Shown here piece by piece: positions 37,675 to 63,276 of a stretch of 64,000 nt of DNA. A program made the translations under genes and the position numbers. This DNA is from Candidatus Marsarchaeota G2 archaeon ECH_B_1 (GTDB lineage Archaea; Thermoproteota; Thermoprotei_A; Marsarchaeales; Marsarchaeaceae), in contig NEXG01000006.1 in NCBI GenBank assembly GCA_003019535.1, positions 1-64,000 on the forward strand, read 5' to 3'. The notes beneath the pieces are model-generated. The model made no database searches and was not told the DNA's origin. It saw nothing but the letters and a program-made list of their open reading frames with translations. Numbering within the stretch: the stretch's first letter is position 1; every line of letters starts with the position of its first letter.

Positions 37675-38025
37675 ATGGGTTCTAAGCCCAGCCCCACAGA
37701 CTTCAAGTTCACCTCACACAACAACCTGAGGCGGGTGGCCATACGCCAACTCTTAGAGGAGGGCTACCCTAAGGAGAGGATACAGGTCGACGTGGACTTG
37801 AACACCAAGAGAGTGGACGTGTTCGCGGACGGTGAGAAACCCACGATCATCGAGTGCAAGAGCTTTAAGCACACAAACGAGTACGCGTCAAAATACCTCA
37901 GAAGGGAGGGGGGTGGTAGAAGGGTTCTCTGCCAACCCTTCTTCGACGTGGATGAAATGTGGCTTGTTTATAGAACCAAGAAGAACAAGTACATCGTGAT
38001 AAAAGTACCCCGCCCACAAGAGTAG
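37675..38025 (+). CDS. Small PD-(D/E)XK nuclease-like protein
   Basis: A 116-residue protein with the arrangement of the restriction-endonuclease fold: Asp48 in KRVDVF, then E60-C-K62 in IIECKSF, on adjacent predicted strands. An N-terminal helix bears NNLRRVAIRQLLEEGY. I do not recognise a characterised family; it may be a Holliday-junction-resolvase-like or Mrr-like nuclease. A clear TATA box (37631-37640) precedes it and its 3' end abuts the rRNA operon terminus. No methyltransferase partner is adjacent. Confidence 0.7.
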   Translation: MGSKPSPTDFKFTSHNNLRRVAIRQLLEEGYPKERIQVDVDLNTKRVDVFADGEKPTIIECKSFKHTNEYASKYLRREGGGRRVLCQPFFDVDEMWLVYRTKKNKYIVIKVPRPQE

Positions 38026-38066
38026 CACACACAAAAACAGCAACATTTTTACGAGCATCGTGTGAA

Positions 38067-41208
<3,142 letters not shown>

Positions 41209-41307
41209 CGGCGCGCGCTCGCCGCACGCCGCTAACCCTTCGCCCACAACCCTTAGGGGTTGAGGGCTGCATATAGCTTTGAAGTGTCCGCCGCCAACAC
41301 TAACCGG

Positions 41308-42905
<1,598 letters not shown>

Positions 42906-46705: not shown

Positions 46706-47944
46706 ATGGATGAGTTCGACGAAATGGTTGCGCAGGCGATCGAGAAGGGCGTCTCATTGAGCAGGCTGAAGGCCTATTTTTCTCTTGCAAGTGAGTCGGA
46801 TACTGCTAGGCTGAGGGCGGCTGTGCTTGAAAGGAAGATGGGTGTTGATCTTAGCAGTGTTAAATCTTTAAAGCTTGATTTTGATGTGCTGGTGGGTAGG
46901 AATATTGAGAACCCAGTCGGCGGGGTTGTCCTACCAGTCGGTGTTGTGGGTCCCCTCTTGGTGGACGGCTCCTTCAGGAAGGCTGAGGTGTTCCTCCCCC
47001 TTGCCACAACGGAGGGAGCGCTGGTCGCCTCGGCTAACAGGGGTGCGAAGGCAACCTATCTGAGTGGTGGGGTGAAGGCTAGGGTGATTGGGGATAGGAT
47101 GACGCGTGCCCCTGTGTTCAGGACTGAGTCGATTGATGAGAGCGTGAGACTCCGAGAGTGGGTGGAGACCAACTTCGATGAGCTCAGGAGGATCGCCTCA
47201 TCGACAACAAAGCATGGGAGACTCGAGGGCGCCAAGTGCTTTATTGTGGGTACAAACGTGTTCGTCAGGTTCTCCTACTCGACGGGTGACGCCATGGGTA
47301 TGAACATGGTCACCATAGCCACCGATAGGGTGGCTGAATACATTGAGAAGGAGACGGGTGCTAAGCTAGTGGCGTTGAGTGGTAACGTGTGCTCGGATAA
47401 GAAGCCCGCGTATATAAACACGTTGATGGGTAGGGGTAAGAGCGTTGTTGCGGAGTGCACCCTGCCTAGAGAGGTGCTCTCAGGGGTGCTTAGGACAACC
47501 GCTGAGGAGATAAATGAGATAAATGTGCGCAAAAACATGCTGGGCAGCTCTGTGGGTGGCTCCCTTGCGCAGAACGCTCACTTCGCCAACATCGTCGCAG
47601 CTAGCTTTATCGCTATGGGTCAAGACGCGGCGCAGGTTGTAGAGTCAAGTCAAGGCTTCTGCTTCACTGAGGTAAGGAGTGGGGGTGACCTATACTTCTC
47701 CGTTACACTTCCAAGCCTAGAGGTGGGCGCAGTGGGGGGTGGGACAAAGCTTGAAACCCAGCGGGAGCTACTCTCACTGACGGGTGTATTCAGCGTGGAG
47801 GAAGGGATGAGGTCTAAGTGGCTAGCCGAGGTGATAGCCGCGGGCGTGCTCTCAGGCGAACTATCCCTCCTCGCAGCCATGGCTTCAGATGAGCTGGCTG
47901 GCTCACACAGCAGACTAGGCAGGGGAGGAGAAGCTAAAGGTTAG
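46706..47944 (+). CDS. hmgA: 3-Hydroxy-3-methylglutaryl-CoA reductase
   Basis: Reduces HMG-CoA to mevalonate for archaeal isoprenoid lipids. 412 residues, class I type: GNIENPVGG-like RNIENPVGGVVLPVGVVGPL, TTEGALVASANRG (catalytic Glu), GDAMGMNM, DKKPAYIN (catalytic Lys) and GAVGGGTKLETQ. The catalytic His is in AGSHSRLGRGG near the end. Start ATG 46706, family-typical MDEFDEMVAQAI; the longer frame to 46574 is rejected. Its last 30 bases overlap the convergent gene at 47915. Confidence 0.95.
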   Translation: MDEFDEMVAQAIEKGVSLSRLKAYFSLASESDTARLRAAVLERKMGVDLSSVKSLKLDFDVLVGRNIENPVGGVVLPVGVVGPLLVDGSFRKAEVFLPLATTEGALVASANRGAKATYLSGGVKARVIGDRMTRAPVFRTESIDESVRLREWVETNFDELRRIASSTTKHGRLEGAKCFIVGTNVFVRFSYSTGDAMGMNMVTIATDRVAEYIEKETGAKLVALSGNVCSDKKPAYINTLMGRGKSVVAECTLPREVLSGVLRTTAEEINEINVRKNMLGSSVGGSLAQNAHFANIVAASFIAMGQDAAQVVESSQGFCFTEVRSGGDLYFSVTLPSLEVGAVGGGTKLETQRELLSLTGVFSVEEGMRSKWLAEVIAAGVLSGELSLLAAMASDELAGSHSRLGRGGEAKG

Positions 47945-48637
47945 GTTGGGTAGAACCTTATACAGGGTTTCACTCCCAAGGTAGATGGGGCAGGTCTGAT
48001 AGTATATTTTGAGGTAGCAATCCGTCAGGTCTAGATTAACTGTTGAGGTTTGACCAATGTTTTCAAGTGTGAGCGTCCCCGACACACCCTGGAGCTGCCC
48101 GATGAACGCGTACACCGCATCCTCTACTCTGGTAGATGAGGAGTTGTTGGGTAGCCCAGCGACCACGCCGAGGAGCTCCTGCGCTATATAGTAGCGTATG
48201 GGTGGCGTAACTGTGTAGGTATAGTTGATGAGCGCCCGCTCAGAAGGCAGGTAGATTGTGGCATCCACTGCGAATAGTGGGAAGCTGGCGGGGGGCTCGG
48301 AGTAGTCCACCTGAAAGTTGTAGAGCGTTAGGCTCACAGTGGCGGCATTCACATGGAACACCACATACCGCCCACCTCTTAGGTTGAAGGCTAGGTTTTG
48401 AAGTAGGGAGGCGTAGGATTTGTTGTCAAGTGTGTAGGATTGGCTGGTTAGGTAGGCTTGGGTGTAGTGGTATATGAGCCACTCTTCGTATGCCTTTGAG
48501 GAGGAGAGCAATAGTGGCGTGGGCGGCGAGAAGCTGGGCATCCCCGCGGGCGCCGCGAAACCAACCGAGAGAGCCACGATTAGCACAGCCATCGTGACAA
48601 GGCTGAGGGTGGTTACCAGAGCACGCCTAGCTCCCAA
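47915..48637 (-). CDS. Secreted or membrane-anchored pilin-like protein (cluster member D)
   Basis: 240 residues. A single N-terminal hydrophobic helix (residues ~6-30, RRALVTTLSLVTMAVLIVA) preceded by two arginines is followed by a long extracellular-type domain rich in Tyr, Ser, Thr and Asn with several N-glycosylation sequons (NYT, NKS, NNSS) and two Cys near the C-terminus (DCYLKIYYQTC). This is the shape of a minor pilin. It overlaps the gene upstream (48627) by 11 bases and is the last gene of the minus operon. Not recognised by family. Confidence 0.7.
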   Translation of the reverse strand: MGARRALVTTLSLVTMAVLIVALSVGFAAPAGMPSFSPPTPLLLSSSKAYEEWLIYHYTQAYLTSQSYTLDNKSYASLLQNLAFNLRGGRYVVFHVNAATVSLTLYNFQVDYSEPPASFPLFAVDATIYLPSERALINYTYTVTPPIRYYIAQELLGVVAGLPNNSSSTRVEDAVYAFIGQLQGVSGTLTLENIGQTSTVNLDLTDCYLKIYYQTCPIYLGSETLYKVLPNLTFSFSSPA

Positions 48638-48884
48638 ACCATACCACCATACTCGATGGGCTGATGCTTAGGTTAACACCCTCGGAGGCGGAGCGCGCGG
48701 GGAGGCCTGGTGCGCACGACTCCTGCGTGCAGGATGCGAAAAGTGTGTAAAGCTTCTGGGCGGCCTGCGCCTGCTCTGTGTGCAGGTGCTCGTAGGACGT
48801 CGAGGCTCCCGTGAGGGCTAGTGTTGAGGCTAGGAGCAGCATCACGGCGAAGGCCGCCAACATTAGGTCGGTGTACACAATCAT
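48627..48884 (-). CDS. Small pilin-like membrane protein (cluster member C)
   Basis: 85 residues: N-terminal helix at residues ~5-27 (LMLAAFAVMLLLASTLALTG), then a short polar region with two Cys (SCTQESC) and a Ser-rich end. Type IV pilin-like topology without a canonical class III peptidase site. The start ATG overlaps the stop of the small gene before it as ATGA, so translation is coupled. Function inferred from context. Confidence 0.68.
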   Translation of the reverse strand: MIVYTDLMLAAFAVMLLLASTLALTGASTSYEHLHTEQAQAAQKLYTLFASCTQESCAPGLPARSASEGVNLSISPSSMVVWFGS

Positions 48885-49048
48885 AGGATAACAGGCCTCC
48901 AGTTCTGCGCGTCTCCAAGATAGTTAAAGAATTGGAGCACCGTCTTAATGATCTGGTGGGTGTAGTTAACACTGAACACACCCATCGTCACCATGAGTGC
49001 GATCGCTAGAACCGCGGCCATGTACTCTAGGAGGCTCGCCAAGAGCAC
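48881..49048 (-). CDS. Very small pilin-like membrane protein (cluster member B)
   Basis: A 55-codon gene. GTG start at 49048 preceded by GGAGG (4 bases), or the ATG at 49021. The product is a hydrophobic helix (LLASLLEYMAAVLAIALMVT) followed by GVFSVNYTHQIIKTVLQFFN and a short polar tail, as in small pilins of the Ced/Ted and T4P systems. It overlaps member A at its 5' end and ends in ATGA with member C. Confidence 0.7.
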   Translation of the reverse strand: MLLASLLEYMAAVLAIALMVTMGVFSVNYTHQIIKTVLQFFNYLGDAQNWRPVIL

Positions 49049-49428
49049 AACGCCTCCTCTACGTTGACTATGTAGACTCCGCCAGCAGTGTAGCGGATGT
49101 TAAGGCAGGTCGGGTTTGTGGTGTTGGCGGCGTACACGCTGAATGGGTAGTTCTCGGTGTAGGTTGTGCCGTTCACATGGATTCTTAGCGTTGTTCCCGA
49201 CGCCTCTAACCAAGCTGTGTCAGCCGGGGGGGCAACAAGCGTGTTAACCCTGTCAGTCCACGCGTAGCCCACGAAGTCGAAGAAGTACGCTAGCTTCTCT
49301 TGGCCCACCACCCTTGCTTGAATCTTAAGGAAACCCCCCAGTGCGGCCACGCTGCTTGAGACCACGAGTCCACCCACTATTATGAGTAGGAAGAGCACGA
49401 GTTGTTCGGATAAGAGTTCTGCTGGCAT
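49027..49428 (-). CDS. Pilin-like protein with extracellular domain (cluster member A)
   Basis: About 133 residues from ATG 49428. An N-terminal helix (ELLSEQLVLFLLIIVGGLVV) carrying a Glu near the start, like type IV pilins and FlaF-type proteins, then a beta-rich domain with sequons (NGT, NTT, NPT) and two Cys. First gene of the minus operon: a minus-strand TATA (about 49453-49459) places transcription at ~49431, so the mRNA is leaderless. The start lies 27 bases from the plus-strand ATPase start at 49455. Confidence 0.72.
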   Translation of the reverse strand: MPAELLSEQLVLFLLIIVGGLVVSSSVAALGGFLKIQARVVGQEKLAYFFDFVGYAWTDRVNTLVAPPADTAWLEASGTTLRIHVNGTTYTENYPFSVYAANTTNPTCLNIRYTAGGVYIVNVEEALCSWRAS

Positions 49429-49454
49429 CGAGTAAATATTCAACTATTTGTTTT

Positions 49455-50918
49455 ATGCTAGTTGACTATCAAGCTGAGGTGGGTTTCGCGATCATAACCG
49501 TTGGCTGGCCGGGTAGCAGCGTGGTATTCGTGGATGATCCCAAGCAGGCCGAGGGTGTTAAGGCGGAGGCTGGGGGGGAGGTTTGCTTTGTTGGTGTGAA
49601 GAACACCTTAACACTGGATGGCGACATCCTGAGGAGGGCTCGTTTCCCGATGGGTAGACGTGTGGCCGAGTACGCTGTGGGCCCACTCGCCGTTAATATC
49701 TACGCTGAGCCTTGGCCTAGCTATAGGTGGACTCCAAGCGTGGACACATCACGCATAAATAGTGTATGCTCGAAGCTGACTCAACTCAAAGTTAGGGTGG
49801 GTGGCCCCGCGAACCTCTTTCGCCAAATATTTGATGAGCTAAACACGCGGGCGCTGAAGTTGCTCGCCGAGGCTGGGGTGGACAAATGGGTTGAGGAGAC
49901 CGCTACACTATGCGCGCTCTCAGCGCTCGGCTTAACACCCATAGCCCCCCTACTCCTAGATGAGGGGGTAGAGGAGGTTTACCTAGATAGGCCTGGAGCG
50001 CTATGCTACCTTGACCAAACGCGTTACGGTAGACTCTGGTACCCCTACGTGGTTGGTAGATACACCCTCCAGAGGCTTGGATTATACACCGAGCTATCGG
50101 TGAGCGGGGCACTCAGCTACGCATCCAACAGTGTTAAGGGGTATATTCAGACGGGTAAACTGAGTCTACGTGTCAGCGTGGACTCAGAGCCGCTCGCCGC
50201 CGACGGCGGCAGCTGTGTTATAAGGAAGCTATACCACTCAAAGTGGACGCTGGACCAGCTAATACGTAACGGCACCCTGAGCGCTGAGGTGGCCGCGCTG
50301 CTTGTGGGCGCCGTGAGGACGGGCTACTCACTACTCGTGTGCGGCCTGCCTAGGAGCGGTAAGACAACACTGTGTAACGCCATACTCGAACACCTCCCAG
50401 CTGAGTGGAGGAAGCTATACATCGAGGACGTGCTTGAGACAGAGTCGCCCAGCGCGGAGGACAGAGTTGTGCGCTACTCTACAGACTCGGGTTTCAACAC
50501 CGATAAACTACTCGAAGTCACAAAGAGCCTGCACAGGTCGCCCGACCTCGTCTTCGTGGGCGAGCTTCAAACAAAGCAGCAGACACTTGCGGCCGCCATG
50601 CTTATGGCGGTGGGTATCCCCTGCATACAGACCGTTCACGCGACCAGCCTAGAGGGGTTACTGAATAGGTGGAGGAACATCTACGGTATGAGACTCGACA
50701 TTAGGTCGCCGCTATTAGCTGTCTTTATAGATCACCGTGAGGGCCGCAGGGTTGTGCGAAAAGTTGTCTACACCAAGTTCTCCGAGAACTCCGGCATGGA
50801 GTCATTGACCATATACTCGGATGGAGCAATCGATCGGCTGAGGTTGGCTGAGGGGGGCCTTGAGGGGGCGTACATAGAGGGGGTCAGGGCTCTTGGACTC
50901 ACTGAGTTACCATCTTAG
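49455..50918 (+). CDS. Type IV pilus / type II secretion assembly ATPase (TadA/FlaI-like)
   Basis: A 487-residue secretion ATPase that would power pilin assembly at the membrane. The N-terminal domain (~1-110) is unlike known ones; then a conserved linker region (EEVYLDRP) and the ATPase core: Walker A GLPRSGKTT at residues 297-305, Asp-box YIEDVLETE, Walker B-like PDLVFVGELQ at 363-372 (VGELQ where most have VGEVRG), and His-box TVHATS. The 3' end overlaps the platform gene by 26 bases. It is divergent from the pilin operon. Confidence 0.9.
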   Translation: MLVDYQAEVGFAIITVGWPGSSVVFVDDPKQAEGVKAEAGGEVCFVGVKNTLTLDGDILRRARFPMGRRVAEYAVGPLAVNIYAEPWPSYRWTPSVDTSRINSVCSKLTQLKVRVGGPANLFRQIFDELNTRALKLLAEAGVDKWVEETATLCALSALGLTPIAPLLLDEGVEEVYLDRPGALCYLDQTRYGRLWYPYVVGRYTLQRLGLYTELSVSGALSYASNSVKGYIQTGKLSLRVSVDSEPLAADGGSCVIRKLYHSKWTLDQLIRNGTLSAEVAALLVGAVRTGYSLLVCGLPRSGKTTLCNAILEHLPAEWRKLYIEDVLETESPSAEDRVVRYSTDSGFNTDKLLEVTKSLHRSPDLVFVGELQTKQQTLAAAMLMAVGIPCIQTVHATSLEGLLNRWRNIYGMRLDIRSPLLAVFIDHREGRRVVRKVVYTKFSENSGMESLTIYSDGAIDRLRLAEGGLEGAYIEGVRALGLTELPS

Positions 50919-52098
50919 ACGCATCCTGCAACCCCTAGTGGCTACAGTGGGTCTAGGCCTGTACGCGTTAAACCCTGAGCTCGGCCTCCTTATAATGTGC
51001 GCTTCGGTTCTATTTGAGGTGGACTCGGAGGGTACAGTGTACCACTCAGTGCTCGCTTCAAGGCTGCGGGGCGCGCTCGTGAAGATGGGTGTGAACAGAC
51101 CAACCGCCACCGTGATATGTGAGGGGTTATTCGACCCGAAGAGTGGAAGCGGGGCTGCTTATCTGTCTAGCGGAGACTATAAGATTAGGGCGAAAAGCGA
51201 ATACGCCTCCAAGATGCTCATTCTTGAAAACGTCGTGCTCCTCATCTCAGGGCTCTCAACCGTCGGGCTACTCACATGCTACATCATCACCTATATTTAC
51301 GGTGGTTCGAGGCTTGCTACCGCACTCTTCGGGGTGGTTCCCTACACTGTGTTTATTGCAAGGTTCTTCGTGTCGCAGAGGACTGGCAGATTCATGCGTA
51401 GCAGGTTGGCGGAGGCGTTCAGCATAGCACTCATCGCACTCTTCTTAGCCACAAACAGGGAGCACATCGCACTCATACCCTTACTTGGCTTCGGTATGGG
51501 CTCAATCTACACACTATATACCCGTGAAATCAGGAGGAGAGGGGCCGAGAGAAGGGAGAAGGCATTCTTTGTAGCACTCATGAAGGCGCTTGGCAACCAA
51601 GGCTTAGCCGCCAAGGCTAAAGTTGTGCGACTCACATCCGAATTCGGCTCACTCAGAGTCGCTGACCTCAGCTATAACCCAAGCGTCCCAAGCATACTCG
51701 AACACATCTCAACCAAGATGGTGAGGAGTGACCACCGCGTAATCCTAGGAGTATTCGGCAAGGCTCTCTCCGCACTGGGCTACAGGCCATCCTGGTTTAG
51801 GGCTTCGTGGTCGCTACTCAGAGTGTCGGAGCGATTAGAGTCAGAGCTCAGCCAGCAACTCGCTAAAAACGTGCTCGTCGCATCCGTTATGTTCTCCATG
51901 AGCGCTCTGAGCATAACCCTGCTAACGGGTACAGCCTTCTTCAAGTTCTCTTCAGGCTCACTGTTAGGTGTGCTGCCCACACTCTCCTTGGATGCAGGCT
52001 ACCTAGGATTCTCCTACATCTATAAATCGGAGACACTCTACGAGGTATTACTCCTAACACTGCTCGTAGGCGAACTTGCGCTCAGGTACTCCATCTAG
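50893..52098 (+). CDS. Pilus platform membrane protein (TadC/FlaJ-like)
   Basis: A 401-residue integral membrane protein with about seven to eight hydrophobic helices in two groups, separated by cytoplasmic loops. This fits the T2S/F core protein that anchors the assembly ATPase. The cytoplasmic segment after YTREIRRRGAERREKAFF is a four-helix-like region. The gene overlaps the ATPase 3' end by 26 bases, typical of this pair. Sequence is divergent; assignment rests on topology and gene order. Confidence 0.8.
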   Translation: MDSLSYHLRRILQPLVATVGLGLYALNPELGLLIMCASVLFEVDSEGTVYHSVLASRLRGALVKMGVNRPTATVICEGLFDPKSGSGAAYLSSGDYKIRAKSEYASKMLILENVVLLISGLSTVGLLTCYIITYIYGGSRLATALFGVVPYTVFIARFFVSQRTGRFMRSRLAEAFSIALIALFLATNREHIALIPLLGFGMGSIYTLYTREIRRRGAERREKAFFVALMKALGNQGLAAKAKVVRLTSEFGSLRVADLSYNPSVPSILEHISTKMVRSDHRVILGVFGKALSALGYRPSWFRASWSLLRVSERLESELSQQLAKNVLVASVMFSMSALSITLLTGTAFFKFSSGSLLGVLPTLSLDAGYLGFSYIYKSETLYEVLLLTLLVGELALRYSI

Positions 52099-52125
52099 CT
52101 ATTAGTGTCTAATCAAAGGTGTATA

Positions 52126-52389
52126 TTGGTGGAAAACTTGCTTGGCGTACTAAAATTCATCTTGAAACTCCTAATGGATAAGAGGGGTTCACCCCTACTC
52201 GAGGAGGGCTTACTCGTGGGCTTAGCGCTCGTGCTCTTCGCGGTTCTGGTGTCCGCCTTCCTGGGAATATTCAACTGGTTCCAGTCAGCCACACAGCCCC
52301 TGAGCGGGCTCGGAGGGGGGCTTTCCACACTCTTCCAGTCAATCATGCAGGGCTACCTTAAACTCTTCAAGTTCCTAACGGGTCAGTGA
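52126..52389 (+). CDS. Prepilin-like protein with type IV-type signal
   Basis: About 87 residues from the TTG at 52126, preceded by aaaggtg (52115-52121). A basic leader is followed by DKRG then SPLLEEGLLVGLALVLFAVL, which is a plausible prepilin cleavage (after Gly) with the hydrophobic helix and Glu at +5 or +6 of a type IV pilin. The C-terminal part is short and Gly-rich, so it is a small pilin. It lies between the platform and HerA-like genes, with the next start 2 bases after its stop. Confidence 0.75.
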   Translation: MVENLLGVLKFILKLLMDKRGSPLLEEGLLVGLALVLFAVLVSAFLGIFNWFQSATQPLSGLGGGLSTLFQSIMQGYLKLFKFLTGQ

Positions 52390-52390
52390 G

Positions 52391-53860
52391 ATGCTCGAAC
52401 TCCCACTCAGCGGGCCGAGGGTAAGGGTTCTACGCGAAGGCGTCAGGTGGTTTGGTTACACACTCGTGGAAGTCAAGCCGAGGGAGGGAGTCAGCGCCGA
52501 CGCTGCAATCTTCCAGAGGTTTGTTGAGGGGATGCGTAGCGCGGGGGTTAACTACGCGTTCCTCGTTGTTGGCAGACACGAGCTACTTCCTCTAAGCCCA
52601 CCTAGGAGGGGGGGCTTCCTACTCGTCTACTCTCGGGGGTTCGGTAAAAGGAAGGTGGTTAAAGACGTTAAACGCTCCTTCCGACAGGCCAAGTCCCTCG
52701 CCGAGGTAGCTGGATTAGACGTTAACCCCGAAGGTGACGGCGCTCGCGACGGGGAGGCGTGGCTTCTACAAGCGGTTTTCAGGAACATATTGGAGGCCCC
52801 CATGGGTGTGGGTGAGGAGCCAGTGTTGGAGGCTCTTAGGCTGGGGCGCCTGGTGGGTGGGGGAGAGTTCAAACTCAGGGTGGACGACGTCTACAAGCAT
52901 GTGGTGGTTCTGGGTGAAACCGGCTCTGGTAAGTCCAGTTTCGTGGCGAAACTCCTCTCAGCTGTGGGGGAGCGTGGAACTCACTTCTTAGTGTTCGATT
53001 GGCACGGCGAGTACTCAGCCCTGCTCAGGGACAGCTCCACGCTTGTGATAGCCCCAGACCAAGACCTTGGGTTCGATATCTTCGACTACCCCAGGGCCGT
53101 CGACCCCTTCGTGCATATCGATGTGCTCATGGATATATTCACCGATAGCTTCGACCTGAGCGTTTCACAGCAGTTCATCCTGAGAAGCGCGTTGCGCAGG
53201 GTTTTCACAGATAAGGGGCACGGTATGAGTGAAGACGCGAAGCCGGTTACGGTGGAGGACGTGATAACGTCGGTCAACGATCTTAGAACATACTCGGGGT
53301 GGGAGCAGGAGTCAAAGCTCGCCGTGCTGCGAAGGATATCCAAGTTAGCGGACACGGGTCTTAGCAGGATGCTTAACGCCAACCAGAAGATAGGGTTCAA
53401 CGACCTGCTCAGTGAGAATGTGATAGTTGACATAGGGCAGGTGACCGATAACTACTCTAAGATATTTGTGGTGGAGGCCATACTAAAGCTCCTCTATGAC
53501 TACAAGGTGTCTAGGAAGCTTGTGGAGCCCCATGTGATAGTGGCTGAGGAGGCGCGTAATATCGTGCCCTACAGGAGAGCGGAGGAGCCGCCGAGTATAA
53601 TGGAGAGGTTGGTGGAGGAGATGAGGAAGTTTGGGGAGGGTATGGTTATGGTCAACCAGCTACCCTCAACCCTCTCCCAGGAAGTGCTCACAGCGGCTGG
53701 AACAATTGTTGCCTTCAGACTCAAGGGTGGAGGCGAATACGACATACTAAGTAAGAGGTGTGGTATAGGCGTCGACGTGTGTCAGAGGCTGGCGGACCTC
53801 CCAGTTGGGCGGGGTGTTTGCCGTCACCCCCACAATAAGACCGAGTTCTTCGAGTTTTAG
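52391..53860 (+). CDS. HerA/VirB4-like DNA-translocase ATPase
   Basis: A 489-residue HerA-FtsK superfamily hexameric ATPase. Walker A GETGSGKSS at residues 175-183, FDWHGEYS, Walker B HVIVAEEARNIVP near 377-389, and a C-terminal arginine-rich end. HerA proteins pump DNA in repair, and relatives (VirB4, CedB) drive DNA transfer through conjugation-like or import pili. A unique ~150-residue N-terminal domain precedes the motor. Coupled to a pilin gene rather than to NurA, so a role in transport is more likely than repair. Confidence 0.88.
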   Translation: MLELPLSGPRVRVLREGVRWFGYTLVEVKPREGVSADAAIFQRFVEGMRSAGVNYAFLVVGRHELLPLSPPRRGGFLLVYSRGFGKRKVVKDVKRSFRQAKSLAEVAGLDVNPEGDGARDGEAWLLQAVFRNILEAPMGVGEEPVLEALRLGRLVGGGEFKLRVDDVYKHVVVLGETGSGKSSFVAKLLSAVGERGTHFLVFDWHGEYSALLRDSSTLVIAPDQDLGFDIFDYPRAVDPFVHIDVLMDIFTDSFDLSVSQQFILRSALRRVFTDKGHGMSEDAKPVTVEDVITSVNDLRTYSGWEQESKLAVLRRISKLADTGLSRMLNANQKIGFNDLLSENVIVDIGQVTDNYSKIFVVEAILKLLYDYKVSRKLVEPHVIVAEEARNIVPYRRAEEPPSIMERLVEEMRKFGEGMVMVNQLPSTLSQEVLTAAGTIVAFRLKGGGEYDILSKRCGIGVDVCQRLADLPVGRGVCRHPHNKTEFFEF

Positions 53861-57367: not shown

Positions 57368-57380
57368 GTAGGTAAAGAGT

Positions 57381-57454
57381 GGGTCAGTGGTCTAGCCTGG
57401 TATGACGCCACCCTTACACGGTGGAAATCGCCGGTTCGAATCCGGCCTGACCCA
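57381..57454 (+). tRNA. tRNA-Val (TAC), target of an integrated element
   Basis: Acceptor GGGTCAG pairs with CTGACCC, discriminator A, no CCA. The anticodon stem CCACC/GGTGG holds loop CTTACAC, anticodon TAC. The T arm is GCCGG-TTCGAAT-CCGGC. The integrase gene begins 46 bases downstream in the same direction, so the 3' half of this tRNA is the likely attachment site (attL) and the tRNA remained intact after integration. Confidence 0.93.
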
Positions 57455-57499
57455 TACCGATAGCGGTTCTTATATAAGACAGGCTTATATTCTACATAC

Positions 57500-58753
57500 G
57501 TGGTGTACTCCTTAGGGATAGACCCCTTGACCGAGTTCTTTGACGCCCTGGATAACCCTCTGACGAGGAGGTACTATGAGAGGAGGATCAGGGTGTTCTT
57601 CGCTCACGCGGGGATAGAGGGAAAGGACCTCGGGGAACAGGCCTCCGCGTTTGTGCGCAGAGCGAAGGAGGACCCCACCTATGCGTACTACGCGGTCACG
57701 GGGTTCGTGCGCTTCGAGAAGGAGAGGGTGGAGAGGGGGGAGATAACCGCTGGTACACTCACCAACTTTGTTAAGGCTGTGAAGCTCTTCTGCGAGCAGA
57801 ACGATATCATGCTCAACTGGAAGAAGATCTCAAGAAAGCTGCCCAGGGTGCGCGAATACGCTTCGGACAGGGCTCCAACAAGGGAGGAAATACTCAGATG
57901 GATGGAGTACCCCGACCGGAGGATTAAGCCCATCATACTCCTCATGGTCTCCTCGGGTATCAGGCTGGGCGCCTGGGACTACCTCAGGTGGAAGGATATA
58001 GAGCCCATCTACGCAGAGTCCGCCCCCACCAGCGGCGGCGGGCAGCCGGAGGAGCCTGTGGCCGCGAGGCTCACCGTGTACAGGGGGACAGAGGAGGAGT
58101 ACACGACGTACATAACACCGGAGGCCTACCTGTGCCTCAAGGAGTGGATGGAGTACAGGGCGGGCCAGGGGGAGAGGGTGACACCCGAGTCCTGGCTCAT
58201 GCGTGACCTATGGGACACAACCACCCCTAGGGGTCTCCTCCAGGTTAACACCCCGAGGAAGCTCAGGTCCTCAGGTGTAAAGCGCCTCCTCGAGAGGTCT
58301 CTCTTCGCGCAGGGCCTGAGGAAACCCCTCCCCCCGGGGAAGAGGAGGCACGAGTTCCAGGGTGCACACGGCTTCCGCAAGTTCTTCAAGAGCGTGTGCG
58401 AGAAGCACATGAAGAGCCTGCACGTGGAGATCCTCATGGGCCACAACGTGGGCCTCGCCGAGTCATACTACAGGCCGCAGGAGCGGGAGATCCTCGAGGA
58501 CTACCTGAAGGCCGTGCCCGAGCTCACCTTTTACGCGAAGAAGGAGGACCAGGGTGGGGGTGGGGGGATCACGGAGGAGGAGGCCGAGGCCCTGAGGGAG
58601 AAGATCAGGAGGATGGAGGAGGAGCAGAAGAAGAAGGACGAGCAGATACTCGGGCTACTCGCGGAGCTCGGCCGCGTTGTGGAGGAGCTCAAAGAGGAGA
58701 GGCTCAGGGAGCTCTCCGGCGGGAACCGCGGGGAGAAAGGCAGAAGACATTAG
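57500..58753 (+). CDS. int: Tyrosine recombinase / integrase
   Basis: A 417-residue site-specific recombinase of archaeal-virus/plasmid type. An N-terminal SAM-like DNA-binding region (NPLTRRYYERRIRVFFAHAG) is followed by the catalytic domain: Arg155 in SSGIRLGAWDYLRW, His290-x-x-Arg293 in AHGFRKFF, His315 in LMGHNVG, and Tyr323/Tyr324 in ESYYRPQ. A Gly-rich linker and a C-terminal coiled coil (ALREKIRRMEEEQKKKDEQI) extend it, which may drive oligomerisation. GTG start. It has a higher G+C and AGG/GAG-rich codon usage than chromosomal neighbours, in keeping with transfer. Confidence 0.92.
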   Translation: MVYSLGIDPLTEFFDALDNPLTRRYYERRIRVFFAHAGIEGKDLGEQASAFVRRAKEDPTYAYYAVTGFVRFEKERVERGEITAGTLTNFVKAVKLFCEQNDIMLNWKKISRKLPRVREYASDRAPTREEILRWMEYPDRRIKPIILLMVSSGIRLGAWDYLRWKDIEPIYAESAPTSGGGQPEEPVAARLTVYRGTEEEYTTYITPEAYLCLKEWMEYRAGQGERVTPESWLMRDLWDTTTPRGLLQVNTPRKLRSSGVKRLLERSLFAQGLRKPLPPGKRRHEFQGAHGFRKFFKSVCEKHMKSLHVEILMGHNVGLAESYYRPQEREILEDYLKAVPELTFYAKKEDQGGGGGITEEEAEALREKIRRMEEEQKKKDEQILGLLAELGRVVEELKEERLRELSGGNRGEKGRRH

Positions 58754-58855
58754 ATAGAGCTGGTTGGATCCGTGTCGCCCGTCGTAACGTAAGGAAGCTC
58801 CTTGCTTCAGCTAGGAGCAGCTCACGGGCTGGGTGGAGCTCGAAGAACTCTTTTC

Positions 58856-59491
58856 CTAGTCCCCGAAGGAATCCCTTTTTTCGTATTCTTGCTTGAGGAG
58901 CTCGTAGCTCCACTCCTGGTACCAGAGCTTCCAGGCGTCCAGGCTCCAGTTAATCACCCTATAGAGGTCAGGGTGCACCCAGAGCGAATAAATAAAGTAG
59001 TAGCGGTCCCGCAGCGCACGTTCAAGTGTTTGCCGGATCCACTGATCCAGGGGGGAACCCGATTTCTCAGCCTCCCTATAGTACTCTTCGCCCAATTCGC
59101 CTTGAAGCACGTCGCGGAGGACCAGGCCGAGCTGGTATATCTCATCCACTTCGAGCTTCGCCTTCGCCTTCACTTTCGCGATCACCTCATTCAGGGCCGT
59201 GTTCCCCGCGGCTTTGTCGATCGCCTCAAGCTGCCTAGCGGCCTCCTCCTCGTCTATCTCCTCCAGGGGGGGCGCATTCTCGTCCTGGTCCTCCTGTGTG
59301 CCTGGGTTGGATTCCAGGGGTGAGCGGTGGCCCACCTCCTCCTTCTCCATTTTTTTCTTAACTTTGGCGATGAGGGTCCTGCCAGCCCCCGTTTCCTCCC
59401 GTATTTCCCTGTACGTCTTACCCTCCTTGAGGAGGGTGCGTATTCTTCGTTTTAATTCCTCTTCTTCCTTCTTACCTCTACGGCCTCTCAT
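58856..59491 (-). CDS. HTH DNA-binding protein of the element
   Basis: 211 residues. Residues ~10-50 form a resolvase-like helix-turn-helix (IRTLLKEGKTYREIREETGA, then GRTLIAKVKKKM) suggesting sequence-specific DNA binding, possibly repression or partition. An acidic Pro/Glu/Asp linker (~60-85) and a helical domain with several Trp and Tyr at the C-terminus follow. It is divergent from the ParB/methyltransferase relic; the palindrome region at 59628-59712 lies in the gap and may be its operator. Family unknown. Confidence 0.65.
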   Translation of the reverse strand: MRGRRGKKEEEELKRRIRTLLKEGKTYREIREETGAGRTLIAKVKKKMEKEEVGHRSPLESNPGTQEDQDENAPPLEEIDEEEAARQLEAIDKAAGNTALNEVIAKVKAKAKLEVDEIYQLGLVLRDVLQGELGEEYYREAEKSGSPLDQWIRQTLERALRDRYYFIYSLWVHPDLYRVINWSLDAWKLWYQEWSYELLKQEYEKRDSFGD

Positions 59492-59533
59492 GGGTAGCTA
59501 TGATGCGCAAAGAAACATAAACGCTCCGAAAAA

Positions 59534-59599
59534 AAGAACCGAAAAAGGACTAAAAGGACTGAAAAAGCACGGTTCTTTTTCCTTAGGCAGTCCTTTTTC
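59534..59599. repeat. Nested inverted repeats in the element control region
   Basis: Two overlapping inverted repeats: aagaaccg at 59534-59541 with cggttctt at 59570-59577, and gaaaaaggact at 59541-59551 with agtcctttttc at 59589-59599. They lie ~45 bases upstream of the HTH gene and could be a regulatory hairpin or operator array. Confidence 0.55.
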
Positions 59600-59627
59600 C
59601 CCCGCTTCACCGGGAACCAGGAAACCT

Positions 59628-59712
59628 AGAGAAGACCGAAACTAAAGAAAAACGAAACATCGATTCGGAGACAGTCTCCGAATCGATCAAGAGAAGACCG
59701 AAACTAAAGAAA
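59628..59712. repeat. 29-bp perfect palindrome between 23-bp direct repeats
   Basis: Two identical 23-bp copies (59628-59650 and 59690-59712, starting agagaagaccg) flank a perfect inverted repeat at 59659-59687 (14-bp arms, one central base at 59673; left arm atcgattcggagac). The core tccgaatcgatcaa recurs at 59879-59892. This resembles an operator, partition or recombination site of a plasmid or virus. Confidence 0.75.
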
Positions 59713-59744
59713 GATCCGGTTCTGGATCCAGCCCTCTACCGCAT

Positions 59745-60158
59745 TTGACGGAGGGTCAGAAGGCTGTCCTAGCTAACGAGTACAGGAAGATATTGAGCGA
59801 GAAGGCGAAAAAGCAAAGGGGAGAAAATGCCATTGAAAAAAGATGGAGACCAGAGCAAAAATACTTGTCGGACACTGTGTCCGAATCGATCAAAGCTGAA
59901 GTTGATACCCGTAAAATAGCGTCCGAAAAGTTCAAGGTCTCTGAATGGAAGGTCAGGATGGTTCAGGAAATAGAAAAGAAAGCGCCCGAGCCGGGCTCCC
60001 AGAGGGGAAATTCAGCATTATTTACGCTGATCCCCCCTGGGAATTGGAGAAAATAAGGGCAATGTGGCATAATCGACTTATATTTTTGGCAACAAAATGA
60101 GGTAAAAAAATGGCAAGTGCCAAACAGAAAATAAGGGCAATGTGGCATAATCGACTTA
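59745..60158 (+). pseudogene. ParB-like / MT-A70 adenine methyltransferase gene, internally deleted and frameshifted
   Basis: The frame from 59745 encodes a ParB/HTH-associated segment (EGQKAVLANEYRKILSEKAK and DTRKIASEKFKVSEWKV) that loses sense at about 59990. One base shift away the sequence reads KFSIIYADPPWELEKIRAMW, which is the catalytic DPPW motif of MT-A70 N6-adenine methyltransferases, then RLIFLATK and a stop. The rest of the methyltransferase is missing: the frame ends in the 78-bp tandem repeat at 60048. Intact relatives in phages and plasmids fuse these two parts. The gene was disabled by deletion plus frameshift. Confidence 0.7.
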
Positions 60159-60204
60159 TATTTTTGGCAACAAAATGAGGTAAAAAAATGGCAAGTTGCC
60201 AAAC
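60048..60204. repeat. 78-bp tandem duplication
   Basis: The 78 bases 60048-60125 are repeated at 60126-60204, differing only by one inserted t late in the second copy. Each copy contains the iteron-like gtggcat (within caatgtggcataatcg) and ends in ggcaag-(t)-tgcc-like palindromic bases. Confidence 0.9.
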
Positions 60205-60353
60205 TCGAAAAATATGCCACATTTCCCATCGGTGGGGGGGGTAAACTCTTTTAACACCCCCCGGACCCAGCTATGAAATATGTGGCATTTGTGGCATTTG
60301 TGGCATTTGTGGCATTTGTGGCATTTGTGGCATTTGTGGCATATTTTCTTCAT
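60156..60353 (-). CDS. Small ORF encoding Cys-His-Lys tripeptide repeats
   Basis: A 65-codon frame from the ATG at 60353, directly downstream of an AT-rich minus-strand TATA-like tract. It starts MKKI and then repeats Cys-His-Lys six times, followed by CHIFHSWVRGVLKEFT and a hydrophobic end. The tripeptides come from the 9-bp iterons below. It may be an accidental frame through an origin, not a gene; if expressed, the repeats could bind metal. Confidence 0.2.
   Translation of the reverse strand: MKKICHKCHKCHKCHKCHKCHKCHIFHSWVRGVLKEFTPPTDGKCGIFFEFGNLPFFYLILLPKI
60282..60342. repeat. 9-bp iterons (gtggcattt), 6.8 copies
   Basis: Six perfect units of gtggcattt (60282-60335) and a partial seventh (60336-60342). 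The core gtggcat also occurs in both 78-bp repeat copies (60064 and 60142) and inverted near 60213. Such iterons bind replication initiators next to a plasmid or virus origin. Confidence 0.85.
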
Positions 60354-60397
60354 ATTTATTATATAAGAATATATATATTTATTATATAATAATAAAT
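60341..60397. other. AT-rich tract, candidate origin-unwinding element
   Basis: About 57 bases composed almost wholly of A and T (atatatatattta and similar), immediately after the iterons and just before the end of the replication protein gene at 60435. Iterons plus AT-rich tract together form a plausible replication origin for the element. Confidence 0.6.
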
Positions 60398-60434
60398 GAA
60401 GAAGCAAACTGGAGAAGTAAAGTGTTTGCTTTCC

Positions 60435-63191
60435 TCATGGCACCGATTGAGGAGGTTCCTCAAAGTTCGGGTTGAGGAAGCGCAGGAAAGCCTGCATGTC
60501 TGCTTTAATGCACCTCATGTTTTTATCCCCTACCCTGAGAGATGTGTATTCGAAGCCGTCTCCCAACACTTCCGCGAGATTTGAAAACGCACCGAAGTCC
60601 GCCTCGTTCAAGTATCTTCTTTTTATTTCTTCGCCCACTGCGGTGGTGATTATCACACCACTTAGTTCCCGCTTCCCCTTCCCTCTGTATGGGAGAAGAT
60701 ATGGTACAAGTTTTGCCTGGATCACTTTTTCAACTTTTGTCTCAACATCCTCTTCCTCGCCACTGATTTCGTGGTCCTTGAAAGCTCTCAGGAACGCTTG
60801 ATTAATCGCCTCTACAAAAATCACCCTCACTTGTTCCTTCATCTCCTCCAGCCTTTCAAACACAGATGCTTCCTCTTGTGTGTATTGATCAAACACCCAC
60901 TCAGGCGTCTGCATTCCCACCTCTTTGAAAAGCATTTTAAGAAGATTAATCGAATCAGTGAGCCAATCATTGGACAGCTTGTAAAGATCGGTCGAAACGT
61001 AGAAGCCCACCATTTTCCCGATCGCAGAAAGCTTGTTTGCGTTTTGCTTAACGAAATTCATGAACTCGTGTTTCTGAGTGTTACTCTTCATGAACTCTTT
61101 TTTATTGAAATTCATAAATGTGAGTTTTCTCAGCAGAGCCGCGTCATCGGGTTTTAATTGATTACTTGAAAAAATGACGAATGGTAATGAAGGCACTGTT
61201 TCCCACATTCCGCTCATGAATCTCCCCCGTGCTTGAGTGCTTTCTACTGCATTTTTGATCATCTCTAGTAGTTCCCCTTTTTCCAACAGTTTGTAGGCTT
61301 CATTAATGAGAAGCGGTGTGCCTGAGCCTGCAAGCCATGCGCCCAAACGCGCCTCGGTGTTCGTGGATGAACCAGACGTTACTCGTGGTACTGTTGCGTG
61401 TTGGTTACCGTCGATCGAAGGAGTTCCCCAGATATGAAGAACTGTGAGCGAAAAAGTGGTTTTACCCGAGCCTGTGAAGCCATAAAGCCATAGCCAGGGG
61501 ATGTAGACACCCTTTTGTTTGTATATGAAATTAAAGGGGGCTATTACCACTCTTCTAACGATCTCAGAGGCTTTTGCGCCAAAATGTTTCGAGAAATCCA
61601 TAATAATATTAAGAGTTTCGAGCGCTTGCCTTAATTCGTCGATGAAAGGTGGTTCACAATCTATCCCTACAGGCGCGACTGCTTCGCCACCATTGACTTG
61701 CTCTAAGAAGAAGCCAGCCCTGTCTGCTTCTCTTTTAATTAATGCGCGCCCCTTTCTCACCCATCCTATCATCACAGCGGCGAGCGTGTCTTTCGCATGA
61801 AATGAATTCTTCACGAAGCCCTCTGCCTGTAGTCTCCCCAGGATTTCCTCTAATGTTGCAGGCCCTAACTTGAAGACGTGTCCATCCTCGGCGCTTTCAA
61901 ACGTAACTTCGTAGGTCCTTACACTCGAAAAAGGCGTGGAGTAGATTACCACTTCTCTGGGACAGCATGCAAGGACAATATCGGTGATGCGGAACCTGTT
62001 TTGTTCTTTTTCAAATCGTCCTCTCACTATGCTTCTTTTGGATGGCAGAGAAACAGCGTATCTATCTCCACCCAATTCTTCGAATACTGCGTCCCTCATA
62101 TAAGGAGAGCCGAAGCCGATGGTGTCCTGTAGTTGAGAAACGATTGCAAGCGCCTTTTCTTCGTCACCGAGCGACTCCGTTAAAACTTCGAGAACGCCTC
62201 TTTCCGATTTTAGTGAGGGAAGCGCGCTTACGTCTTCTATGGTGTACGTGCGCTCAAGCCTCTGGAACGCCTGTTTTTTGTGTTCTTCTTCAGCGCCCTC
62301 CGTGAGAAGCTCGAATAGTTTTTTTGCATCTTCATAACTTACACCTGCCCTTCTTAACCAACCAGAGATCGCCAGCTCTAAATCATTTCTGTGCCCTTCT
62401 CTGTACCCTTCATTTATCAAAGAGTAAATTGTGTGTATTGTGTTTGCATCAAGTTTTCGCTCTTTTTGCGGAATAACGACAGAACCACGAAACACTTCAC
62501 GCTCTCTAATTTCTAAATCAGAAAGCAGCGCGGCTTGTTCTTCTTCAGATAATTCGATAGCCGACCCCCAGTTTTGCACCGCTTGGTACCTTACACCAGA
62601 TGGGTGAATGGATGGAGAAACGAGGATCTGGCTTCCTTCCCCCTTGACCTCCAACGCCTCACCGTAGCGTCCATATGCTTTCGCCCTTCGGAAAGGCGTG
62701 CGCACCCTGAAGATTACGCGCACCCCTCGCGCACTCTTTTCCGAAGCATCGAAGACAAGACCGCATAGTGCGCATCTCCACTTATCACCCTCTTTCCTAA
62801 TATCATGTTTTGAACGCAACTGACACTTAGGGCAGCGGGCGCCTGTGAATTCCACCCACGTGTTATTTAAACTCGATCTGTAGATTGGATTACGTTTTTT
62901 CACAAATTCAAGAAATTCATTAAATGTGTGATAGTCTTCAAAGTCAAGAAAGAGATGATTATCGGCTTTTATCCCTAACTGCGCACCATCTCGAAACAGC
63001 TTTTCGAACTCGAGCCACCTCGTTTTTTCCTCTCCGACTGTGAGTTTCTGCCATTCTTTGACAATCGGTCTTTTATCACCTTTTTTAATCGGAAGTACAA
63101 CGTAATTTTGCTCCAAAAGCGTGCGCGCGATCTTCACCATTTCTTCTGGTGCTACTGGTTCCGTTGAAAGACTGTACACTTCATCTGCCAC
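60435..63191 (-). CDS. PrimPol-SF3 helicase replication protein
   Basis: A ~918-residue plasmid/virus replication protein. The N-terminal AEP primase-polymerase domain has motif I FLDFED (Asp/Glu at ~86-88), an inserted zinc knuckle (Cys123/126 and 143/146 in the longer numbering), RGVRVIF and the late motif SPSIHPSG. The C-terminal SF3-type helicase has Walker A GFTGSGKTT (574-582), Walker B TPLLINEA and sensor FSSN (680). I start at the GTG at 63191, because agaggtg lies 6 bases upstream; the GTG at 63200 lies within that site. It would prime, extend and unwind the element's DNA at the adjacent iteron origin. Confidence 0.88.
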   Translation of the reverse strand: MADEVYSLSTEPVAPEEMVKIARTLLEQNYVVLPIKKGDKRPIVKEWQKLTVGEEKTRWLEFEKLFRDGAQLGIKADNHLFLDFEDYHTFNEFLEFVKKRNPIYRSSLNNTWVEFTGARCPKCQLRSKHDIRKEGDKWRCALCGLVFDASEKSARGVRVIFRVRTPFRRAKAYGRYGEALEVKGEGSQILVSPSIHPSGVRYQAVQNWGSAIELSEEEQAALLSDLEIREREVFRGSVVIPQKERKLDANTIHTIYSLINEGYREGHRNDLELAISGWLRRAGVSYEDAKKLFELLTEGAEEEHKKQAFQRLERTYTIEDVSALPSLKSERGVLEVLTESLGDEEKALAIVSQLQDTIGFGSPYMRDAVFEELGGDRYAVSLPSKRSIVRGRFEKEQNRFRITDIVLACCPREVVIYSTPFSSVRTYEVTFESAEDGHVFKLGPATLEEILGRLQAEGFVKNSFHAKDTLAAVMIGWVRKGRALIKREADRAGFFLEQVNGGEAVAPVGIDCEPPFIDELRQALETLNIIMDFSKHFGAKASEIVRRVVIAPFNFIYKQKGVYIPWLWLYGFTGSGKTTFSLTVLHIWGTPSIDGNQHATVPRVTSGSSTNTEARLGAWLAGSGTPLLINEAYKLLEKGELLEMIKNAVESTQARGRFMSGMWETVPSLPFVIFSSNQLKPDDAALLRKLTFMNFNKKEFMKSNTQKHEFMNFVKQNANKLSAIGKMVGFYVSTDLYKLSNDWLTDSINLLKMLFKEVGMQTPEWVFDQYTQEEASVFERLEEMKEQVRVIFVEAINQAFLRAFKDHEISGEEEDVETKVEKVIQAKLVPYLLPYRGKGKRELSGVIITTAVGEEIKRRYLNEADFGAFSNLAEVLGDGFEYTSLRVGDKNMRCIKADMQAFLRFLNPNFEEPPQSVP

Positions 63192-63276
63192 AAAGAACAC
63201 CTCTCAATTCGGAAGAGCCGCAGATTGGGAGCAGATCATTGACCGAGTGCCTCCAGCTTTTCTTAAGCTCTTGAAC

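Follow-up and report, generated by a model that had tools for sequence, protein, structure and literature searches.

The window analysed here, 64,000 nucleotides from contig NEXG01000006.1 of Candidatus Marsarchaeota G2 archaeon ECH_B_1, contains at 47915-53860 a divergent cluster of eight genes, four for small membrane proteins on the minus strand facing four on the plus strand, which together join a type IV pilus to a HerA/VirB4-like ATPase of the CedD family. The contig (C6) belongs to a genome of 2.55 Mb, and housekeeping genes, for HMG-CoA reductase and methionyl-tRNA synthetase, flank the cluster on its two sides. The first plus-strand gene (49455-50918) encodes a type IV pilus assembly ATPase of the T2SSE family (Pfam T2SSE, e-value 6.9e-17) with the Walker A motif GLPRSGKTT at residues 297-305. 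It is followed by a multi-helix membrane protein, the presumed TadC-like platform (50893-52098), then by the major type IV pilin (52105-52389, although the gene may in fact begin further downstream than 52105), whose processing site is KRG-SPLLEE, and finally by the CedD-family ATPase (52391-53860; Pfam DUF87, 1.4e-22; NCBIfam CedD, 1.1e-37), whose gene begins two bases past the final base of the pilin stop codon. On the minus strand lie m1 (49027-49428; 133 residues, pilin-like, with its start set at the ATG of MPAELL), m2 (48881-49048; 55 residues), m3 (48627-48884; 85 residues) and m4 (47915-48637; 240 residues), neighbouring genes overlapping by 4 to 22 bases. Each of m2, m3 and m4 has one helix; m3 and m4 are presumed to be minor pilins, m4 being a secreted protein with a prepilin-like N-terminus (ARR-ALVTTLSLVTMAVLIVALS). 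Only the T2SSE and DUF87 genes are recognised with confidence by Pfam, the small proteins and the platform protein having no match above cut-off. All eight gene calls, the motifs and the position of the Walker A sequence agree with an initial annotation made from the letters alone. That annotation also reasoned that a prepilin peptidase must be encoded elsewhere: neither this enzyme nor NurA is found within the cluster, and a gene matching Pfam Peptidase_A24 above cut-off is present on contig C1 (92583-92882).

The pilin carries a class III signal with a glutamate at +5, and the motif [RK][GA]-S-P-L-x-E-E-G is found in nearly all of 16 homologues. The initial comparison with the conjugation-like pili of the Ced and Ted systems holds as regards the combination of a pilus with a HerA/VirB4-like ATPase. 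It does not extend to the pilin: CedA1 and TedC are VirB2-like, with two hydrophobic helices (PMC9905601), whereas here a type IV pilin is assembled via a T2SSE ATPase. The Ups pili of the Sulfolobales, which act beside a Ced-type DNA import system, are likewise type IV pili with an assembly ATPase and platform. However, the pilin of the cluster is short and of another family than UpsA and UpsB, neither of which finds a match in the pilus clusters. In addition, the assembly ATPases of the pilus loci form a clade of their own, apart from UpsE, AapE and the archaellum ATPase and also from the three other pilus-type ATPases of the same genome. Names for the reference ATPases in this tree were taken from position and neighbouring genes, the UpsF beside UpsE being confirmed by NCBIfam. 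A direct origin of the pilus from Ups was considered and is disfavoured by the tree.

The platform protein follows the assembly ATPase in all genomes of the family. Profile comparison with UpsF, AapF and ArlJ gives its family a non-significant probability of 4.5%, against 91.6% for the equivalent gene of distant loci, so that in this genome the platform is presumed from its position after the ATPase. Pilin structures had been expected of the small minus-strand proteins; the single one modelled with AlphaFold2, m1, agrees with this in showing a long N-terminal helix (residues 2-58) followed by a β-domain of seven strands, at a predicted local distance difference test (pLDDT) score of 85, and a Foldseek search with this model found no fold match in the PDB. 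An archaellum-type operon is also visible on contig C10 (L033), and the genome therefore has several type IV filament systems.

Within the family of this genome the arrangement is maintained. The family, which includes a Candidatus Marsarchaeota G1 genome, has an orthologue of the HerA-like ATPase in 6/6 genomes, those of the relatives being 46-98% identical to the window protein. The set of eight genes and their order are kept in all six, and in the five relatives HMG-CoA reductase lies upstream of the full divergent cluster. Conservation between genera is highest for the pilin (65-77% identity), followed by the HerA-like ATPase (46-55%), the assembly ATPase (43-48%) and the platform protein (26-32%). 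The small minus-strand proteins reach 16-34% (m4 16-27% outside the genus), m3 and m2 being kept throughout and m2 terminating in an NWRP motif in most members. That the full set stays in order despite such low identity among the small proteins shows the cluster to be more than a product of chance.

The broader distribution was assessed by searching a named-genome collection with a HerA alignment and taking the best 80 loci of HerA relatives; the genomes are partly the same as those of a second, phylum-level search with the pilin alone. At 52 of the 80 loci a pilin lies immediately upstream of the HerA relative, and at 48 an assembly ATPase is present too, so that the co-location initially put forward as a check proves to be conserved. 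Pilus-linked loci come from Marsarchaeota, Nitrososphaerales and other Thaumarchaeota (including soil forms), Brockarchaeota, Methanomethylicota, Bathyarchaeota and unplaced 'Thermoprotei' genomes. The pilin search gave a match in 41 of 300 genomes, with a HerA gene directly 3' of the pilin in many of the loci retrieved. The order ATPase-platform-pilin-HerA is thus found again in distant phyla, likewise with a divergent block of one-helix proteins, in which the position and N-terminal motif of m4 recur while the counterparts of m3 are positional. At these distant loci the platform is mostly encoded by two genes and HerA mostly has two N-terminal membrane helices. By their described traits (PMC6668835), Epd-like and Tad pili resemble the clusters in their short pilins and, as regards the distant loci, in a platform spread over two genes; they differ in that the clusters have a HerA partner, and no TadZ was seen in the clusters. 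Some lineages have a HerA gene divided between two reading frames, one for the membrane part and one for the ATPase part (L070, 8235-10209; L074, 8473-10207; L083, 7409-8868); in L083 the second of these, which gave no match to the HerA profile, is perhaps degenerate.

To which branch of the superfamily does the pilus-linked ATPase belong? Among curated families the window protein matches CedD best (129.9 bits), ahead of HerA (57) and CedB (29.7), where the NCBIfam cut-offs are 600 bits for CedD (NF053655) and 700 for CedB. Five distant pilus-linked ATPases score 177-248 bits with CedD and at most 72 with the next family, none reaching the cut-off of 600. As a positive control, the protein beside the thermosome and a TFB3-like gene in the Sulfolobales reference genome, which we take to be S. 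acidocaldarius DSM 639, scores 731.9 bits against the CedD model. In the tree, the pilus-linked ATPases form one clade (support 100/99) that is nested in a moderately supported CedD assemblage (85/83); CedB and the canonical, NurA-linked HerA fall outside this assemblage. The tie to Ced-type ATPases drawn by the initial annotation is therefore upheld by curated models and tree alike, with the correction that the relative is CedD and not CedB. PADLOC matches at the locus are to generic HerA models.

The window protein is distinct from the repair helicase that is linked to NurA: the genome has a separate canonical HerA-Mre11-Rad50-NurA operon on contig C9, and with the HerA of that operon the window protein shares the ATPase superfamily but neither clade nor N-terminal domain. 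Adjacency to NurA in relatives had been named as grounds for abandoning the idea of a DNA-transporting pilus, and no NurA or Mre11 was found in any pilus locus examined. The N-terminal HAS barrel of repair HerA is all-β; in the model of the window ATPase (pLDDT 85), residues 11-135 instead alternate strands and helices, and the domain is predicted not to be of HAS-barrel type. In Foldseek searches with the model, VirB4 of R388, a C-terminal VirB4 structure (4ag5) and HerA match about equally, the N-terminal domain not being separated; the corresponding domain of CedD is reported to be VirB4-like (PMC11868833).

The chromosomal surroundings provide a further connection. Along the chromosome of Methanomethylicota and others, TGT and Lsm are followed by a divergent TFB gene, then by the minor pilins, ATPase, platform, pilin and HerA, and after these by an adenylate-kinase-like gene, the thermosome and S17e. 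Desulfurococcales and Thermoproteales have the HerA gene alone amid the same neighbours, without a pilus, while the Sulfolobales order is S17e, CedD, thermosome, TFB3, Lsm and TGT, again with no pilus there. At one Desulfurococcales locus (L153, 8783-10978) a TFB3-like gene ends a few bases before a co-directional gene of the HerA/CedD family. TFB3 corresponds to Saci_0665/SSO0280 (PMC2246294) and SiRe_1717 (PMC10470591, PMC9738581); CedD is SiRe_1715, two gene numbers away, in agreement with a CedD-thermosome-TFB3 locus. A TFB-like gene is present at 37 of the 80 loci, and not at those of Marsarchaeota, where the cluster sits in a different chromosomal context. The TFB genes beside the pilus are divergent, the two tested scoring 31 and 58 bits where the TFB cut-off is 384, and they are tied to TFB3 by position, sequence similarity being weak.

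The locus thus belongs to a conserved cluster of genes for a type IV pilus and a CedD-family ATPase, and we think it fairly probable that it encodes a chromosomal pilus with a dedicated DNA translocase serving DNA exchange. In favour of this are the fixed pairing of pilin and HerA, CedD as best family, the position in the CedD part of the tree and the shared CedD-thermosome-TFB3 neighbourhood, as well as the lack of a NurA partner, the separate HerA-NurA operon, the type IV nature of the pilin and the pilin-like m1. Because the pairing recurs across so many archaeal lineages, it is probably an old and undescribed exchange machine. Of the pilus for DNA import, exchange or secretion first proposed, the conserved pilus with a Ced-type ATPase is borne out, while the movement of DNA itself is suggested by homology to CedD, which in Sa. 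islandicus is damage-induced and essential for DNA import, and not needed for export (PMC11868833). In such a machine, the prepilin peptidase encoded elsewhere would process the pilin, the assembly ATPase and platform would polymerise it, and the minus-strand proteins might make a tip or base complex. A CedD-like hexamer would lie beneath the membrane, held by its own two helices in most relatives and probably via another subunit in Marsarchaeota, and would pump DNA, most likely importing that of neighbouring cells for recombinational repair or exchange.

Several observations weigh against DNA exchange as the function. The assembly ATPase is not Ups-like, and the window ATPase, at 129.9 bits, falls far short of the 600 required of a CedD equivalogue. 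CedB was not found in the Marsarchaeota genomes, where the sole match to its model is a weak one, by the pilus ATPase itself, at 29 bits with the cut-off at 700; no search was made for the CedA channel. The ATPase of the window family has no N-terminal membrane segment, unlike the two helices of most distant pilus-linked members. Lastly, some related pilus loci have no HerA beside the pilin, which suggests that the pilus may function without it; HerA-family proteins elsewhere in those genomes score far below true pilus-linked ones. An optional partner is what would be expected were the HerA-like ATPase another motor of the pilus, driving its assembly or retraction and moving no DNA, as VirB4 acts in the biogenesis of the type IV secretion pilus. 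Strict linkage to the pilin and the Foldseek matches to VirB4 would also suit such a motor. We nevertheless judge it rather unlikely, given that the nearest characterised relative, CedD, is the import factor described above and that Desulfurococcales and Sulfolobales retain the same gene in the same place without any pilus.

Less likely again is that HerA and pilus are merely co-regulated neighbours, the former repairing DNA inside the cell and the latter driving damage-induced aggregation as Ups does. The TFB-like genes at 37 of the 80 loci are in keeping with this, as is the precedent of the Sulfolobales, whose Ups and Ced machines are separate but controlled together (PMC11868833), yet the membrane helices on most pilus-linked HerA proteins and the relationship to CedD indicate the membrane as the place of action. 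That the cluster belongs to a conjugative plasmid or virus, with HerA as its packaging or conjugation ATPase, is very improbable: such ATPases are common in mobile elements and a tyrosine integrase lies beside a tRNA gene 3.6 kb downstream of the cluster, but housekeeping genes stand on both sides, other lineages have a conserved chromosomal context beside thermosome, S17e, TGT and Lsm, and plasmid and phage collections, searched for such an origin, yielded only distant DUF87 proteins of about 23-26% identity.

Returning to the DNA-exchange pilus, its ATPase resembles CedD of the crenarchaeal import system in curated family and neighbouring tree branches and, in distant pilus-linked members, in thermosome neighbourhood and N-terminal membrane helices. 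It differs in its operon-like clustering with a type IV pilus and, in Marsarchaeota, in the absence of those helices. We tentatively suggest, as a possibility a little short of evenly balanced, that an ancestral archaeal locus of TFB paralogue, type IV pilus and CedD was a damage-controlled DNA-exchange machine. In Sulfolobales its pilus genes would have disappeared or given way to Ups, with TFB3 and CedD remaining at the same place as relics that still serve the Ups/Ced response, while Marsarchaeota and others would keep the original. Such a history would offer a testable origin for the way in which Ups, Ced and TFB3 are coupled in Sulfolobus. DNA exchange in archaea beyond Sulfolobales and Thermoproteales is largely unknown and the origin of the Ced ATPases open; the cluster, adjoined in many lineages by a TFB paralogue, provides a concrete candidate machine for several uncultured groups and narrows the question of whether the pilus carries or imports DNA to a defined set of eight genes. 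The arrangement was unfamiliar to the initial annotation, and no earlier account of it was found in freely accessible main texts, including a 2016 census of archaeal pili, a 2019 phylogeny of type IV filaments and the Ced and Ted papers.

Some further genes deserve mention. Many pilus loci have a ParB-like gene nearby that resembles one beside the ups operon (best e-value 1e-18); it was set aside as evidence because both copies most resemble the ADP-dependent serine kinase SerK, well below the SerK cut-off. Instances of these SerK/ParB-like genes are L076 13962-14837 and L219 8833-9432; the one at the ups operon of the presumed S. acidocaldarius genome lies downstream of it. A second HerA-like protein of the latter genome (L194, 7585-9285) was rejected as CedB, the CedB model placing that gene at 597897-599666; curated models assign it to neither CedB nor CedD, and it represents one more membrane ATPase of HerA/TraC-like type, with relatives in Desulfurococcaceae (L199, L200). 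Elsewhere in the window, G+C rises to as much as 62% and open reading frames nearly vanish at 38000-42000, which may be a ribosomal RNA operon. The region at 57380-63200 resembles an integrated element: it has a tRNA-Val, after that a gene like those of tyrosine recombinases (57500-58753) and, on the minus strand, a large primase/helicase-like gene (60435-63200).

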